Positions 2,235 through 18,915 of a stretch of DNA of 37,129 bases are shown piece after piece (within the stretch, counting starts at the first letter, position 1; every line of letters starts with the position of its first letter). The stretch covers positions 1 to 37,129 of the forward strand of contig CADECG010000019.1 of assembly GCA_902825795.1 (NCBI GenBank), given 5' to 3'. The stretch comes from an uncultured Bacteroidota bacterium (GTDB lineage Bacteria > Bacteroidota > Bacteroidia > Flavobacteriales_F > PHOS-HE28). The translations under genes and the position numbers were made by a program. The notes below the pieces were generated by a model, which did not search any database, was not told where the DNA came from, and saw only the letters and a program-made list of their open reading frames with translations.

Positions 2235-4118
2235 GTGGGCCGTAACCTGACCAACGCCATTGTCCTTTGGGCCGCGCTCATTGGAGCGCCCTTGGCGAAG
2301 GCCCAGACGAACGACACGGCGGACGACCGATCACGATGGGACCGTTGGTTGCGGAGCGCACGTTCGGCAACGGATAGTAGTGGGACCGTGGCGGCAACAG
2401 GTCTTTCGCGGACGCACCAGAACAACGGCGACCTGGACAGCGCCTTGGCGATGGCACAACAGGCGATCCTGCTCGCAAGGGCCGGACTGGATGCAACAGC
2501 AGGAAGGGGCCGAGCGCGTTGGTTGAACCACCTTCTGGTGGCGCAACGCATGATGGGCGCACAACTCTTCTTCCTGAACCGCTACCCGGAAAGCATCGAG
2601 GCGATCAATAGCTACCTGGTCACCGCTGAAGAACTTCAATTGCCGGAGGAGATCGGAGCCGCATACAATTACTTGGGCTATTGCTACACGGCCATGGAAG
2701 ATCTGCCGAGCGCGTTGGCGTGGTCGCGCAAGGCCATGGTCACCATGCGCGGCATCGGCGACGGCATCGATCTGGCGAACGCTTACACGGGGTTGGGCAA
2801 TATCCTGGACGAAATGGGGCAAGGCGACAGCGCGCTGTTCTACTTCCACAAAGCTTTGGACCTTCATCGCACCCTGGATCGGCCGAACAATCATGCGGCC
2901 ACGCTCTTTTCCACGATCGAAACGCTTCGCCACCTTGGGTGGCCAGATAGCGTTGATGCGTACTTGCTCCGCGTGCAGCCACTTGTAGCCTTGTTGGATC
3001 AGCCGCGCAGCGACATGAATTACCTCAACCTGCTAGGTCAGCGTGCCGTGGAAATGGGGAACTCCAAAGAAGGCATTGTCTATCTATTGACGGCCGACTC
3101 GATCTCCGTTGCTATCGAAGACCACCGCTCACGGCACTTTATCAACCGCAGCTTGGCATTGGCGTACGCTGCGATCGGCAATGTGAAGGAGGCATCGCTG
3201 CGCGCCGAATTGGCCGATGCGGAGATGAAAGAGGATATGGGTTTGGAGAAAGTGCGCGCCGTTGCCGCGGCGCAAGCAAAAGCCGAGCAAGAGAAAGAAC
3301 TTGCGACAGCAGCTGCAAACGCCGAGGCGTACAATAAAGGGCGCTGGTTGGCGTGGTCCGTTGCCGGTGGCGGCATCGCGATCGCCGTGTTGTTGGGCAT
3401 GTTGTATAGGCAAAGCCGTAAGAACACACGGAGGCTAACGGCCAGCAACCGGGCGCTGGTGGAAACCCAGGATGAGCTTATGCGCGTCGGCAAAGAGCGC
3501 GAAGCGGAAGTGGTGCGCACCCGGGTGGCGCGGGACATACACGATGAGCTGGGTGGCTCGCTTTCCAAGATCGCGTTGCTCAGTGATCTTGTGCAGCAAG
3601 AAGGATCTCCGGCCGAGGAGCGCGCACAACGCTTGCGCTCCATCGCCGATCATGCGCGGCAGATCCGCGGATCCCTGAATGACGTTGTGTGGGCCGCCGA
3701 CCCTTCCAGCGACAGCGCCGGTTCGTTCATGCAGTATATCGCCGACCGCGCACATCGTTTGCTTGATGGCACCGGAGTCGATCTTCAGTTGAACCTTCAT
3801 GTACAGGACCCCGACCTGCTGCTCGATCCAGCGTTCAAGCACGATCTGTCCATGGTGGTGAAGGAGGCGCTGAACAATGCCTTGAAACATGCACAACCCA
3901 AGATCATCCAGCTGCGTTTCCAAATTGATACCGATCGGTTCGGTTTGGCCATCGCGGATGATGGTCGCGGCTTGGGGCATAGCCCGACCGATGGCGGAAA
4001 TGGGCTGGTGAACATGCGCGCGCGGATCGCAGCGCATGGCGGCAGCCTATCCGTTAACCCGGCGGGGATAGGCACTGGTACATTGGTTGAAGCACATGGT
4101 CCGCTAATACCCCGTTAG
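2235..4118 (+). CDS. TPR-containing sensor histidine kinase, NarL-partner type (HisKA_3)
   Basis: A 627-residue membrane sensor kinase. Residues 1-23 form a signal peptide (ending APLAKA). Residues about 55-330 are TPR-like helical repeats, best seen as GAAYNYLGYCYTAMEDLPSA and DLANAYTGLGNILDEMGQGD. A helical linker leads to one transmembrane segment at 371-391. The cytoplasmic part has an HisKA_3 dimerisation domain with the phospho-acceptor His436 in DIHDELGGSLSK, then a HATPase_c domain with the N-box around Asn547 (KEALNNALKHA) and the DDGRGLG motif near 575-581. The start codon is GTG; an ATG four bases upstream is closed after four codons. The response regulator gene follows 9 nt downstream, giving a standard co-transcribed pair. 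The TPR region presumably senses an extracytoplasmic signal or partner; the ligand is unknown. Confidence 0.93.
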   Translation: MGRNLTNAIVLWAALIGAPLAKAQTNDTADDRSRWDRWLRSARSATDSSGTVAATGLSRTHQNNGDLDSALAMAQQAILLARAGLDATAGRGRARWLNHLLVAQRMMGAQLFFLNRYPESIEAINSYLVTAEELQLPEEIGAAYNYLGYCYTAMEDLPSALAWSRKAMVTMRGIGDGIDLANAYTGLGNILDEMGQGDSALFYFHKALDLHRTLDRPNNHAATLFSTIETLRHLGWPDSVDAYLLRVQPLVALLDQPRSDMNYLNLLGQRAVEMGNSKEGIVYLLTADSISVAIEDHRSRHFINRSLALAYAAIGNVKEASLRAELADAEMKEDMGLEKVRAVAAAQAKAEQEKELATAAANAEAYNKGRWLAWSVAGGGIAIAVLLGMLYRQSRKNTRRLTASNRALVETQDELMRVGKEREAEVVRTRVARDIHDELGGSLSKIALLSDLVQQEGSPAEERAQRLRSIADHARQIRGSLNDVVWAADPSSDSAGSFMQYIADRAHRLLDGTGVDLQLNLHVQDPDLLLDPAFKHDLSMVVKEALNNALKHAQPKIIQLRFQIDTDRFGLAIADDGRGLGHSPTDGGNGLVNMRARIAAHGGSLSVNPAGIGTGTLVEAHGPLIPR

Positions 4119-4127
4119 TTTGCGGCG

Positions 4128-4763
4128 ATGAAGCGGATCCATGTAGCCATAGTGGAAGATGATCGTGATTTCCGTGACTTGTTGCAGGCGGGGATCAAGG
4201 GCGATCCGCGCATTGTGGTCATCGCCACATTCCCTACAGGCGATCGGTTCCTAGCGGAACTGGAGCACCTTGATGCCGATGTGGTGGTGATGGACATCAA
4301 CATGCCCGGCACCAGTGGCATCGACTGCGTTTCGCAGGCCAAGCCGCGCAAACCGGCCATGCAATTCTTGATGAGCACCGTGTTCGAGAACCCCACGTAC
4401 ATCTTCCAAGCCCTGTGCGCCGGTGCAACCGGCTACTTGGTAAAAAGCGCACCGGCCGCAGACCTCATTGCCGCAGTACACGACATCCACTCCGGCGGTT
4501 CGCCGATGAGCCCGGCCATTGCACGAGCTGTTGTGGCTTCGTTCCAAGGTGCACCCGCCCCGAGCATGGAAGAGGCACTGCTCACCGCCAAGGAACGCGA
4601 AGTGGTGGATGGCTTGGCCAGCGGCCTTATGTACAAGGAGATCGCGCATAAGCTTGATGTCAATATCAGCACCGTGCGCACGCACGTCCGCAGCATTTAT
4701 GACAAGCTGCAGGTGCATTCACGAGGCGATGCGATCAAGCGGATGTACCCTGGTCGCGGTTAG
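4128..4763 (+). CDS. NarL/LuxR-family response regulator
   Basis: A 211-residue two-domain regulator. The receiver domain (1-125) has the acidic pair at Glu10-Asp11-Asp12, the phospho-acceptor Asp56 in VVVMDINMP, the switch Ser/Thr around MSTVFEN and Lys445-type equivalent in YLVKSAP. The C-terminal LuxR/GerE helix-turn-helix (about 148-205) has the typical LTAKEREVVDGLASGL and STVRTHVRSIYDKL helices. It follows its cognate kinase by 9 nt. Its last 4 bp overlap the stop of the convergent GEVED gene (stop codons TAG and TAA interlock at 4760-4763). By family it is a DNA-binding transcription factor activated by phosphotransfer from the kinase; target genes are unknown. The adjacent T9SS gene is a reasonable candidate by neighbourhood only. 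Confidence 0.95.
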   Translation: MKRIHVAIVEDDRDFRDLLQAGIKGDPRIVVIATFPTGDRFLAELEHLDADVVVMDINMPGTSGIDCVSQAKPRKPAMQFLMSTVFENPTYIFQALCAGATGYLVKSAPAADLIAAVHDIHSGGSPMSPAIARAVVASFQGAPAPSMEEALLTAKEREVVDGLASGLMYKEIAHKLDVNISTVRTHVRSIYDKLQVHSRGDAIKRMYPGRG

Positions 4764-6964
4764 CGCTTTTGCCAAACGAAGCGCTGCGCTGGCACACCGT
4801 TCAGCACGATCACGTAGACACCGTTCGCCGCATCTCTCATGGGTATGGTGGCAGTAGTCCCGGTGAACTGGCCGGACGCCATGGTTCGGCCGGTAGCCTC
4901 CAGCAGCGCATAGTGTACTGTCCCGACCTCCGTGCGGCGGATCAGTACAATGCCATCGCCCGGCATAGGTAGAATGCTCAGTGCTTGCGCAACGCTTTCG
5001 CCCACGCCCGTGTTCGCGTTGATGGAAACCGTGTAGTCTTCCGTTTCACCGTATGTCGCGTCCGCGCATGCATTCGGGATCGGTTGGAATCCGCATCGTA
5101 CACGCATTCGTTTGTCGCCAAGGACGGCAGCGGGCACGGTGAACGATATGGTCCCCGTTCCGTTCACGCCGTTTATGATGACCGACCCGATCGCCTCACC
5201 TGCATCATTCCAATCACCATCGGCATTGTAGTCGATCCACGCGTGGTAGCTATCGCCGGAATACTCGCCACCGGTGATCGACATGGTGTAGGACACGCCC
5301 ACGTTCAGGGTAGTGCCCAAGGTGGTGAAGTCAACATACGGTGCGGCGTGATCGCCACCGGATGAAATGTTGACCATGTCGCCCAGCTCAATGCCATCGA
5401 TATAGTCACCGCCACGCGTCCAATAGGGGCTGTACGGAACGCACACACCGGCCGGATCCTCAACCACCAATGGTATGTCCAGCAGTTCGCCGAACCCGAC
5501 ATCACCGCAGGCGCTGGCATTGCCATTGTTCGTGTCGTAACCCCGCACACGCAAGATGTGCTGGCCGGGTGGGCAGCTCGCTGGGATCAAGGCGACGATG
5601 CCAAGCGGCTCGAAAGCCATGGTGGCCGCAACTGAGCCGAGCGCTTCGCCCGCATCCGCGAAATCGCCATTGTCGTTCATGTCCAGCCATACATCGTATG
5701 TCTGTGGCAGGTAGGTTCCGGCAACGACATCCACGGCGATGTTCGTTCCGCGATCCACGCGATGCACCGTGTTGCCAAGTGTGTAGAATGGCCACTGCGT
5801 CGTGCCCGGATAGGTAGTGCCATCGAACGTTACGCTGGTAAAACCATCGCCTGCCTGCGTTCCTGCTGTCGGTGGCAGACAAGGAAATACGCCGTGCAAT
5901 ACGGCCAAGGTGAAGTCCTGCGTTTCGCCCCACTCAGCATAGCTACAGGCTGTTACTGCGGGATCATTGTACACACACCGTACGCGCAGGAGCGTATACC
6001 CGACTACTGCATCGGCAGGAACGGTGATGTTGAACGAGGTCGGCGAGAATATGCCAGCGATGGTGAATACACCCAGCTCCTCGCCACCATCATCGAAGTC
6101 GCCGTCCATGTTCCAATCCGCCCATGCACCGTAATGGTCGTTGGCGATGGCGCCGCTGGTGATGGTGATGGTCGCCGTCCCGTTCCTCTGCAACTGTGTT
6201 CCGTATCCCAACGAGGAGGAATAGGCGTGCGTGGGAACAGCGGATTGCGTCATGGAGAAACCGTTCATGGCAACACCTCCGATGAAGTCGTTGGCATATG
6301 GGCCGCGTGCCGTGTATGGGATGCAGGGCAGGCTGCCATTGATCAGGATCACATAGTCCTCTGCTTCGCCATAGCTCTGGTTACTGCAAGCATCAAATGC
6401 GGGATCGTTGTACACACAACGGATGCGCAAACCGGTATAGCCGGGCCGCGCATCGGCGGGTATGTAGATATCCGCCAGGATGTCCTCGAAAGCAGCTGTG
6501 GTCTGTGCGTTCAGCACTTCCTCGAACGCACCGAACTCGCCGTCCTGATCGAAATCTATCCACACCTTGTATTGCTCGAACGCAGCGCCGGGCGGGTCGT
6601 AGGGGCCCACAAGAATGGTCATCGGGTAGACGTTATCCCGATCCACTTGAGCGATGGCATCGCTGCCCTCGTAGCTGTAGTCCGTGAACCCGAGTGCCGT
6701 TTCGGTGGCAACGTAGGTGTTGGAGATGGTGCCGAAGTACACTCCGTCGATGCGGTCACCATCCGACGACCCTACCGTGTAGCCCGGGGTGCAGTACTGG
6801 TTCAAGTCCTCACGGTCTCCGGACCGGTCGAGGGGCCGCACGGGGTTGGAGGGTGAATGGATCGGCCCCATATCCCGCTGGCCAAAGACAGCAATTGCCG
6901 CGGGCAGGGCGAGAAGCAACCAGGTCGAGCGTATCGATGCAGACGTCATTGGCATATGGTTCAT
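4760..6964 (-). CDS. Secreted GEVED-repeat protein with T9SS C-terminal sorting domain
   Basis: About 734 residues. A signal peptide (IRSTWLLLALPAAIAVFG) ends near residue 28. Four GEVED repeats of about 150 residues follow. Each contains a calcium-loop-like DxNxDGD(F/W) segment (for example WADWNMDGDFDDGGEELG) and closes with the defining motif: YGEAEDYVI, WGETQDFTL, FGELLDIPL and YGETEDYTV. The last about 75 residues are a T9SS type-A sorting domain (LSILPMPGDG...GVYVIVLNG...FVWQKR). Starts at 6964, 6955 and 6949 are all possible; the frame is open to 7099, but that part lies across the inverted repeat and lacks a signal peptide at its start. GEVED domains are common in Bacteroidota surface and secreted proteins of poorly known function, probably adhesive or substrate-binding. 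It converges with the NarL regulator and diverges from the NHL-repeat gene. Confidence 0.93.
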   Translation of the reverse strand: MNHMPMTSASIRSTWLLLALPAAIAVFGQRDMGPIHSPSNPVRPLDRSGDREDLNQYCTPGYTVGSSDGDRIDGVYFGTISNTYVATETALGFTDYSYEGSDAIAQVDRDNVYPMTILVGPYDPPGAAFEQYKVWIDFDQDGEFGAFEEVLNAQTTAAFEDILADIYIPADARPGYTGLRIRCVYNDPAFDACSNQSYGEAEDYVILINGSLPCIPYTARGPYANDFIGGVAMNGFSMTQSAVPTHAYSSSLGYGTQLQRNGTATITITSGAIANDHYGAWADWNMDGDFDDGGEELGVFTIAGIFSPTSFNITVPADAVVGYTLLRVRCVYNDPAVTACSYAEWGETQDFTLAVLHGVFPCLPPTAGTQAGDGFTSVTFDGTTYPGTTQWPFYTLGNTVHRVDRGTNIAVDVVAGTYLPQTYDVWLDMNDNGDFADAGEALGSVAATMAFEPLGIVALIPASCPPGQHILRVRGYDTNNGNASACGDVGFGELLDIPLVVEDPAGVCVPYSPYWTRGGDYIDGIELGDMVNISSGGDHAAPYVDFTTLGTTLNVGVSYTMSITGGEYSGDSYHAWIDYNADGDWNDAGEAIGSVIINGVNGTGTISFTVPAAVLGDKRMRVRCGFQPIPNACADATYGETEDYTVSINANTGVGESVAQALSILPMPGDGIVLIRRTEVGTVHYALLEATGRTMASGQFTGTTATIPMRDAANGVYVIVLNGVPAQRFVWQKR

Positions 6965-6993
6965 GGTGCCCGCAAAGCAGTGCTGTTGCATTT

Positions 6994-7029
6994 CACGGGC
7001 GCCTACCATCAAGATGGTAGGCGCCCGTG
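6994..7029. repeat. 17-bp perfect inverted repeat in a divergent promoter region
   Basis: CACGGGCGCCTACCATC (6994-7010) pairs without mismatch with GATGGTAGGCGCCCGTG (7013-7029) around a 2-nt centre. It sits 30 nt upstream of the GEVED start and 51 nt upstream of the NHL start. No gene ends here, so it is not an ordinary terminator. It is either a large operator-like palindrome or a strong hairpin in one or both leaders. Confidence 0.9.
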
Positions 7030-7042
7030 CGACGATGCCATG

Positions 7043-7050
7043 AACGTTTG
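7043..7050 (+). promoter_or_regulatory. Putative -7 box of the NHL-repeat gene
   Basis: AACGTTTG differs from the TAnnTTTG consensus at its first base and lies 29 nt before the ATG at 7080. The inverted repeat ends 13 nt upstream, occupying the place of the -33 region. No TTG is found at normal spacing. Confidence 0.3.
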
Positions 7051-7079
7051 CACGGTCACAAACGCCTACACCACTAACG

Positions 7080-8432
7080 ATGCGCCACTGCTTCACCACA
7101 CTATTGTTCGCACACCTGATCCCAGCCGTCGCGCAGGACTACACGATCACCACCATTGCAGGCACTGGCTTGGCGGGCAGCACGGGCAATGGTGCACCAG
7201 CCGTGAACGCAACAGTGTACTATCCGCAAGGACTGGCCCTGGCGGCGGATGGCTCATTGTATTTCGGTCAGCCGTCCGATCATGTGCTGCGCAGGATCGA
7301 TGCCATATCGGGCAATATGGAGCACGTGGCCGGTATCGGTATGGTTGGGTACAGTGGCGACGGGGGGCCAGCCAACACTGCGGGCCTGGCCTATCCCTTC
7401 GGCCTTGCCTTCAACGCCAATGGTGATCTCTTCATCGCAGAACGGGATGCCCTTCGCATTCGGAAGGTCAGCGTTGTGGACGGTACCATCTCCACATTCG
7501 CTGGCACCATGAGCCCGGGGAACAACACCGAAATACCAGCGCTATCGGCGGCCCTTCACGCTCCGATGGGCGTCCGCTTCACTTCGGATGGCGACCTTAT
7601 ACTGAGCGTGATCGGCAATAACTACGTACGGTATATCGATGCGGATTCCTCGTTCTTGCATGCCTTCGCGGGAAACGGAACTGCTGCTTTCGCCGGGGAC
7701 AACGGTCCCGCACTTAACGCCTCCTTCAACCTTCCGTATGACATTGCCATCGCGACCAACGGCGACATCTACATCGCCGACATCAACAACGCGGCCATCC
7801 GGAAGGTGGATGCCCTATCGGGTGTGATCACCACCGTTGCAGGTATCGGCACAGGTCCTGCTGCATACAACGGCGACGGTATTCCCGCAACGACCGCAAC
7901 GCTCGGTCTTCCGCAGGGCATTGTGTTGGACAGCGCCGACAACCTGTACATCAGCGATGCCAATCATAGCCGTATCCGCAAAGTGGATGCTATAACGGGG
8001 TTGATCGCCACCATCGCTGGTACAGCAACATCCGGGTACGGCGCCGACAATGTGCTGGCCAGCACCGCAATGATCAATTCGCCGTGCGGGATCGTTATTG
8101 ATGCCCTAGGCAGGGTCATTTTCGCCGATGCTGCGAACCACCGCATTCGGATGTTGACCCCGGTGGATGACACAGGGGTTTCTGGGGCAACAAGTTCCGC
8201 AGCGCGCATCCTTGTTTATCCTTCGCCCGCAAATGATCGGGTCTGGGTGTCAACACGTGCGGGCGGAACGGGCGTGCAAGTGGAGATGCTCGACATGGTG
8301 GGTCGCACGGTGTCCCTTGCCACCATGCCCATGAGCGGCACAATATCCATTCCCGTGGACCACCTTGCAACGGGCCAGTATCATTTGCGTTTGGACGGGG
8401 GGTCTGCAGTTCCCGTACTGGTACAGCACTGA
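7080..8432 (+). CDS. Secreted NHL-repeat (beta-propeller) protein with T9SS sorting domain
   Basis: A 450-residue secreted protein. The signal peptide is short (MRHCFTTLLFAHLIPAVA, cut before QDYT). Residues about 20-365 contain five to six NHL-type repeats with the recurring pattern ITTIAGTG..GDGG.A..A.L..P.G(L/I)A.D..GNLYIADxxNxRIRKVD, expected to form a six-bladed propeller. The C-terminal about 75 residues are a T9SS sorting domain beginning ILVYPSPANDRVWV and ending in a beta-rich tail. In this family the propeller usually provides a binding surface; no catalytic residues can be pointed to. It diverges from the GEVED gene and converges with the first seven-repeat gene, 23 nt away. Confidence 0.92.
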   Translation: MRHCFTTLLFAHLIPAVAQDYTITTIAGTGLAGSTGNGAPAVNATVYYPQGLALAADGSLYFGQPSDHVLRRIDAISGNMEHVAGIGMVGYSGDGGPANTAGLAYPFGLAFNANGDLFIAERDALRIRKVSVVDGTISTFAGTMSPGNNTEIPALSAALHAPMGVRFTSDGDLILSVIGNNYVRYIDADSSFLHAFAGNGTAAFAGDNGPALNASFNLPYDIAIATNGDIYIADINNAAIRKVDALSGVITTVAGIGTGPAAYNGDGIPATTATLGLPQGIVLDSADNLYISDANHSRIRKVDAITGLIATIAGTATSGYGADNVLASTAMINSPCGIVIDALGRVIFADAANHRIRMLTPVDDTGVSGATSSAARILVYPSPANDRVWVSTRAGGTGVQVEMLDMVGRTVSLATMPMSGTISIPVDHLATGQYHLRLDGGSAVPVLVQH

Positions 8433-16947: not shown

Positions 16948-18915
16948 GGCCGAAGTGCCGGCGAGCTTCAGAACGACGCGTGTTCCCAACGCCGCCCCGG
17001 CCTCATCCTTCAGGTCCTCGATCACGAAGGCGCCTTCCTTCTCCATGCGTTCCGTGAGCAATTGCAACCGTTCACCAGTGAGCTTGAGCCCCAAGGATCG
17101 GCGACCAGTCTCAGATCTCTCCGCGGAACGTCCAACGCCGTTGTCCTCGATGATGCACCGCACACCAGCGCCTTCGATGCTGAACCGCACAGCCAGACGC
17201 TTCGCTCCTTCCTTGGGTGCCAGTCCATGCCAAATCGCGTTCTCCACGAAGGGTTGCACAAGCAACGACGGGATCAGCATCTCATCGTCGATCAGTTGCT
17301 TCTCCGCTTCCACAGACCATGAGAACTCGCCTTTCATGCGCAGGCCCTCGAGCTTCACGTAGTTGCGTAGGAAGTCGAGCTCCTCTTCCAAGGTGATGCG
17401 GTCGCGGACGCTGTGTTCCAGCACTTGCCGCAGCAATCGCGCGAAACCATCGAGGTATTCTTCGGCCTTGGGGTGTTCGCCGGCGAGCGAGAGCGCTTTG
17501 ATCGCGTTGAGGCAGTTGTGGATGAAGTGTGGATCCATCTGCGTACGCAACACCTTCAACCGCAACAGTCCGTTGATCTCTTCGATGCGCGCTTGTTTAT
17601 CGGTCAATTCGGTGTTCAATCCTTCGAGCAAAGCGGCGTGCTTGCGTCGCTGTTGCAGGTTGCGCCACACGAGCAACACCGCACCCAGGGCCAAGGCAGC
17701 GAGCGCTAGACTTCCATACAGCTGAAGGTTGCGCGCACGCAAACGCTCTATGTTCTCAAGGTCCTTGGCGCGCAAGAGTTCGTTGTCCTTCTCTGCGCGC
17801 TCGGTCTCGAATTCGGTGCGCAGGCGCATGAGCTCCGCTTCACTTCCGACGCTACGCAGGCTGTCCTTCAGTTGCACATAACGTGCGTAGTGCGCGAGTG
17901 TACCCTTGCTGTCGCCCTTGGCACTTGCGAGTTCGGCCAAGCGCTTCTCGTAGTCGAGCACCAGATCGGGTTCACCGCTGGCCGCCGCCAAAGCAGCGCC
18001 CGCCGTAATGCTGGAATCGGCCTTCGCCAATTGTTGCATGGCCAACTGCGTGGCGCCCATAGAGAGCAGCACGTAGGCCTGGTCGGTGCCGCTATCGATC
18101 TGCCGGTACTGGGCCAAAGCCTCGCGGTAGTAGGTCAATGCTTTCTGTGGATCGGTGACATCGAACAGCGCGCCGGCGTTCTCGGCGACAAGTCCGGCAC
18201 CCGCATGCTCACCGATGCGTTCGAAGATCTCCCCCGCTTGACGGTAGTGCTCCAATGCCTTCGCCGCATCGCCTTCACTGCGGTATGTATTACCGATACC
18301 CATAAGGCAATTGGCTTGCTTATCGGGTCGACCACCAAGCTGCTGCTCGTGCGCAAGCGAGCGCTGGAAGAGATCGCGCGCGCGCGCGAATTCCTCCATC
18401 TTGTTGTACGTGGTGCCGATGTTGTAAAGCAGCACAGCGGTGTTTCCGGTATCCTTCACCGCCTCGGATAACTTGAGCGCTTCCTGGAACTCCTTCAGCG
18501 CTCCCGCGCGATCGCCCTTGCGTTCGGCCAGCCAGCCCAGGTTGCTGCGTACCACGGAGATGTAAGCGGCATTGCCGATCCGAGTGAACAGTTCGAGCGC
18601 CCTGTTGAGTTCTGCTTCGCCCTTCTTCAGATCTCCCTGCATCACGGCCAGCCAGCCCAGGTTGTTGTGCGCATCGGCGATCGACTTGTCGTCCTTGATG
18701 CGCTCGGCGAGCGCTAGGCCCTGCTCACCGAAGTACCGCGCACTATCCGGCTGGGAACGGGTGAGATTGAAGCAGAGCTTCACGAGGACCTGCGCGCGGG
18801 TAGTGTCGGGAAGATCCCGGGACAGGGCGACCCGCAGATCAGGAGCGAGCGTGGGGTCCTGCGCGACAACGCCGCTAGCAATAAGGGTCAACGCAACAAT
18901 GGAAAGAAGGCGCAT
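16945..18915 (-). CDS. TPR-containing LytS/YehU-type sensor histidine kinase (cassette 1)
   Basis: A 656-residue sensor. The signal peptide (MRLLSIVALTLIASGVVAQ) is followed by about seven TPR repeats across residues 40-330 (for example IADAHNNLGWLAVMQGDLKK and VLLYNIGTTYNKMEEFARAR), then a coiled coil and one transmembrane helix at 399-419. A second coiled coil leads to the His_kinase (LytS-type) domain with His463 in QMDPHFIHNCLNAI. The usual Asn of NPHF is Asp here. A HATPase_c domain follows, with FVENAIWHGL near 556 and EDNGVGR near 590. The TPR part is exported and would face the periplasm. It is clearly paralogous to the kinase at 27046-28836, including the LYGSL..LALGxVxLVWRNL membrane segment. 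It is the partner of the LytTR regulator 34 nt downstream. Signal unknown. Confidence 0.94.
   Translation of the reverse strand: MRLLSIVALTLIASGVVAQDPTLAPDLRVALSRDLPDTTRAQVLVKLCFNLTRSQPDSARYFGEQGLALAERIKDDKSIADAHNNLGWLAVMQGDLKKGEAELNRALELFTRIGNAAYISVVRSNLGWLAERKGDRAGALKEFQEALKLSEAVKDTGNTAVLLYNIGTTYNKMEEFARARDLFQRSLAHEQQLGGRPDKQANCLMGIGNTYRSEGDAAKALEHYRQAGEIFERIGEHAGAGLVAENAGALFDVTDPQKALTYYREALAQYRQIDSGTDQAYVLLSMGATQLAMQQLAKADSSITAGAALAAASGEPDLVLDYEKRLAELASAKGDSKGTLAHYARYVQLKDSLRSVGSEAELMRLRTEFETERAEKDNELLRAKDLENIERLRARNLQLYGSLALAALALGAVLLVWRNLQQRRKHAALLEGLNTELTDKQARIEEINGLLRLKVLRTQMDPHFIHNCLNAIKALSLAGEHPKAEEYLDGFARLLRQVLEHSVRDRITLEEELDFLRNYVKLEGLRMKGEFSWSVEAEKQLIDDEMLIPSLLVQPFVENAIWHGLAPKEGAKRLAVRFSIEGAGVRCIIEDNGVGRSAERSETGRRSLGLKLTGERLQLLTERMEKEGAFVIEDLKDEAGAALGTRVVLKLAGTSA

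Follow-up and report, generated by a model that had tools for sequence, protein, structure and literature searches.

A perfect inverted repeat at positions 6994 to 7029 of a 37,129-nucleotide stretch of DNA from an uncultured Bacteroidota bacterium (contig CADECG010000019.1; hereafter the window) is probably an operator for a NarL-type activator, common to two divergent promoters and replacing the -33 boxes of both. We favor this reading because the geometry of the site practically equals that of the 7-2-7 site of E. coli NarL. The two arms, CACGGGCGCCTACCATC and GATGGTAGGCGCCCGTG, are complementary at 17/17 positions around a central AA, in exact agreement with the error-free 17-bp arms and 2-nt center described in the initial annotation. 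Within them, positions 7004 to 7019 hold two inverted 7-mers separated by a 2-bp gap (TACCATC-AA-GATGGTA), the arrangement of a NarL-type operator and the predicted site of a response regulator dimer. Neither the palindrome nor its core has a strand.

No other perfect inverted repeat with a short loop in the window is as long as the palindrome. In 100 dinucleotide shuffles of the window, the maximal perfect arm averaged 9.7 bp and reached 13 bp at most, versus the 17 bp observed. A whole-genome search found the 17-bp arm sequence only in this palindrome, and matches with up to three mismatches were about as frequent as those of a reversed control (18 versus 15). The repeated extragenic palindrome that the initial annotation had offered as one possibility, together with a genome search for the arm, is excluded, because the arm is present in a single copy. 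The exact sequence CCATCWWGATGG occurs at four places in the genome; each of the other three falls within an open frame of 214 codons or more and has no TTTG in either slot. Elsewhere in the window, positions 17147 to 17204 hold 2.1 copies of a 27-nt tandem repeat. The arms are far longer than a 7-2-7 site requires, and alignment with the four orthologous loci showed no conservation of their outer 7 bp. Such flanks would fit a dispersed element (REP-like or the remnant of a MITE) or a mutational or assembly artefact, given that template switching can yield long perfect arms and that the source is a draft assembly of 260 contigs. Nevertheless, the single copy in the genome speaks against a dispersed repeat, and the conservation of the core across species contradicts repeat and artefact alike for the core, making this the least probable of the readings weighed here. 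The outer 7 bp of each arm may stem from template switching or an assembly error, or may serve a second protein.

The genes around the palindrome point to a candidate binding protein: a kinase gene and a regulator gene are followed by a minus-strand gene, then by the palindrome and a plus-strand gene. The minus-strand gene (4760 to 6964, start at 6964) encodes an exported protein with GEVED domains, and the plus-strand gene (7080 to 8432, start at 7080) encodes an NHL beta-propeller protein with a T9SS sorting domain. As the initial annotation stated, no gene ends at the palindrome. It had also labeled both divergent genes as T9SS genes; this label holds in part for the NHL protein, which passed the Pfam cut-off (29.4 versus 27) but missed that of NCBIfam (20.9 versus 23), and finds no support for the GEVED protein, for which no sorting-domain model was among the matches at the thresholds used. 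The adjacent two-component system, on which that annotation was silent, lies 2.2 kb from the palindrome, with its two genes directly adjoining on the plus strand. The regulator (4128 to 4763) combines a receiver with a GerE LuxR-type helix-turn-helix, as in the NarL/FixJ type (Response_reg, 77.8 bits versus a cut-off of 30.2; GerE, 53.1 versus 23.5). Among solved structures in the PDB, E. coli NarL (1a04; E, 4.8e-25) matches it best, and the regulator is the predicted binder of the palindrome. Its predicted partner, encoded directly upstream (2235 to 4118), is a sensor histidine kinase whose domain matches are TPR, HisKA_3 and HATPase_c. A sequence resembling a half-site, GATGGGATCCGCCCATCTTTGATG, was also seen immediately before the kinase start (2209 to 2234), with a spacing of 3 nt rather than 2 nt; it was not seen at this position in four orthologous loci. 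Control of the kinase-regulator operon by its own product was considered and rejected, as a comparison of five loci revealed no conserved pairing of a 7-2-7 site and a -7 box ahead of the kinase gene.

Promoter-like sequences are placed symmetrically about the palindrome. A -7 box for the NHL gene (AACGTTTG, 7043 to 7050, plus strand) and one for the GEVED gene (CTGCTTTG, 6973 to 6980, minus strand) each begin 31.5 bp from the palindrome center, on opposite sides, and both end in TTTG. The -7 box occupies -12 to -5 relative to the transcript start, according to a published account (PMC9723704). Transcripts would accordingly begin near 7055 and 6968, which places the center at about -43.5 for both predicted starts and leaves the palindrome outside both predicted transcripts. 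On each side, the 31.5 bp that separate the center from the -7 box come close to the 32 bp to the -10 box from which E. coli NarL activates. The initial annotation had proposed that the palindrome replaces the expected -33 region of the NHL gene, and the absence of this box was confirmed: the window has GGC on both sides at the position of the TTG found at many paralogous loci. A sigma70 promoter scan gave no site near the palindrome, as expected for the phylum.

We compared 45 genomes of the genus (that of the window and 44 others). Similarity of the intergenic DNA was weak and limited to two of the other 44 genomes, so orthologous loci were reached through the proteins. Regulator orthologues with at least 80% identity were present in four of the 44 (handles G008, G009, G012 and G039). 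In all five genomes with the regulator, the window included, a GATG-type palindrome (ATC-NN-GATG) precedes the orthologous NHL gene, and alignment of the five loci showed that ATC, GATG and a following AGG are invariant. Pairing of the 7-2-7 core is 7/7 in the window, G009 and G012, 6/7 in G039, and imperfect in G008. Gene order in G008 is as in the window. In G012, G009 and G039, the order is kinase, regulator, palindrome and NHL gene, with no GEVED gene between, which ties the palindrome to the regulator and the NHL gene. G008 carries boxes ending in TTTG at 31.5 bp on both sides (GAGATTTG on the plus side, GTGCTTTG on the minus side), and a minus-side TTTG was found in 2/2 genomes with the divergent gene versus 0/3 without it. 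In G039, a -7-like box at 31.5 bp (GTACTTCG) has TTCG in place of TTTG. In G012 and G009, the TTCG box lies one base nearer the center (30.5 bp); TACTTCGC at 31.5 bp was tried as the box in these two genomes and ruled out by the alignment.

These loci also bear on whether the palindrome acts as RNA, that is, as a terminator or leader attenuator whose arms, once transcribed, would pair into a very stable stem. A strong stem is indeed predicted on either strand (z-scores of -3.1 and -4.8), and in three relatives the palindrome starts 9 nt past the regulator stop codon. However, the stems of the relatives are only about 7 bp long, and a terminator would not be expected to lie at a constant distance from a -7 box on each side. 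The terminator scan found no site at the palindrome, which lacks both the T-run that accompanies the GC-rich stem of an intrinsic terminator and a gene end. A comparison with the known RNA families of Rfam gave no hit anywhere in the window at gathering thresholds. Because transcription of both genes is predicted to begin outside the palindrome, the leader attenuator mentioned in the initial annotation is unlikely. On this evidence, we consider an RNA hairpin function very improbable.

The spacing between palindrome center and -7 box was learned from the window and then tested at paralogous regulator loci. From 46 loci, five orthologues were removed on purpose, two were too short (L103 and L128) and five were near-duplicates, leaving 34. 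The strict test demanded a 7-2-7 repeat with at least 5/7 pairs and TTTG at exactly the predicted offset, and 8 of these 34 nonduplicate loci passed. In 300 shuffle rounds the mean was 0.19 and the largest count 2, with 0/300 reaching 8; at other offsets from 10.5 to 69.5, never more than three loci passed. Eight settings were tried, and in six the observed count was unreached by any shuffle round; with six or seven pairs and a tolerance of 1, 2/300 rounds reached it. The remaining 26 loci fail the strict test. Two pairs among the eight passing loci share an identical 16-mer, so the eight represent six different palindromes, and no GATG-type palindrome is among them. A further locus, L149, was missed because its site overlaps the stop codon. 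The genes behind the paralogous sites look exported, judging their N termini by eye, and some carry beta-propeller or sorting domains. Short GCAGTAG-type units in many repeats were also noted at L155 and L156, downstream of the stop codons of two paralogous regulator genes.

Across the genus, the composite pattern TACC-N8-GGTATT-N25-TTTG gave 63 matches in 29 of the 45 genomes, with none for a reversed control and two when N28 replaced N25. The window site falls outside this pattern because GG replaces TT after its core. Four of 31 composite sites inspected stand immediately before response regulator genes (L256, L262, L270 and L278 are among the sites), which suggests autoregulation at those loci, and several others precede proteins with signal peptides, as judged by eye. 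TTTG at the mirrored position and arms like the 17-bp arms of the window were each found at 0/31 sites, and G008 has no such arms at its orthologous locus. A next-start check that allowed ATG, GTG and TTG and had no control gave 25/31 and is not used as evidence. One composite site (L257, G000:C29:29276-29322) lies between divergent genes for an amidohydrolase-like protein and, from its N terminus by eye, a carotenoid desaturase-like protein.

An alternative is that the palindrome serves a different protein or acts with a different sign, either through binding of a second NarL-type regulator encoded in this genome or as the site of a repressor that blocks both promoters. In G000, other composite sites have similar half-sites (TACCCTC), one of them right before a NarL-type regulator gene, and position alone does not distinguish an activator from a repressor. 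Conversely, the GATG-type core and an orthologue of the local regulator occur together in 5/5 genomes, the composite sites of G009 and G012 have inner bases that differ from this core, and the missing -33 boxes suggest a need for an activator. We therefore regard a different protein or sign as unlikely.

In E. coli, a single 7-2-7 site centered at -44.5, which is 32 bp ahead of the -10 box, supports activation by NarL (PMC9314961). The operator at the ogt promoter derivative ogt1052 resembles the window site in its inverted 7-2-7 heptamers, its NarL-type regulator and a site center that precedes the core promoter box by about 32 bp (at -44.5, compared with the predicted value of about -43.5 in the window). 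It differs in having a sigma70 -10 box rather than a Bacteroidetes -7 box, one promoter rather than two divergent ones, other inner bases, and no counterpart to the 17-bp arms. Paralogous kinase-regulator loci of the genus, such as those in G006, G005 and G038, likewise have a 7-2-7 repeat near the regulator stop codon, TTTG at the same offset and a gene for an exported protein after it; unlike the window, they carry other palindromes (TAACCCG and TAACATG), many keep the -33 TTG, and each has a single promoter. Relative to Bacteroidetes sigma-A promoters (-7 box, TAnnTTTG), the -7-like boxes of the window share the TTTG ending but lack the -33 TTG, whose place is taken by the palindrome. In the literature on NarL-/LuxR-type regulators in Bacteroidetes, as represented by titles and the opening lines of abstracts, no title names a rule linking operator distance to the -7 box. 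SsrB of Salmonella turned up among titles on divergent NarL promoters.

We infer the following course of events. The kinase encoded at 2235 to 4118 would phosphorylate the NarL-type regulator encoded at 4128 to 4763, and the regulator dimer would then bind the 7-2-7 core at 7004 to 7019. From about -43.5, the bound dimer may recruit RNA polymerase to two weak divergent promoters that have no -33 box, activating rather than repressing them, so that both divergent genes would be switched on together: the minus-strand gene for the exported GEVED protein and the plus-strand gene for the NHL beta-propeller protein of T9SS type. The palindrome had been suggested as an operator shared by two secreted-protein genes; its single copy, the conserved core before the orthologous gene and the equal -7 distances support that suggestion. 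Judged from sequence, the palindrome is most likely a switch of a familiar kind that occurs in a new context, placed like the site of a well-studied E. coli activator of the same family. More tentatively, NarL-type regulators of this lineage may control exported and T9SS-secreted proteins through a fixed composite promoter (7-2-7 site, 31.5 bp, -7 box), with paralogous kinase-regulator-target modules having changed their half-sites and kept the spacing; here a symmetrical operator would drive two genes, its 17-bp arms perhaps serving a second function. These results assign a likely regulator to two secreted-protein genes of an uncultured Flavobacteriales lineage and suggest that an operator at a fixed distance from a -7 box can serve as a simple rule for finding NarL-type targets across the genus. 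They also make it possible to test directly how regulator-operator specificity has evolved across many paralogous pairs.
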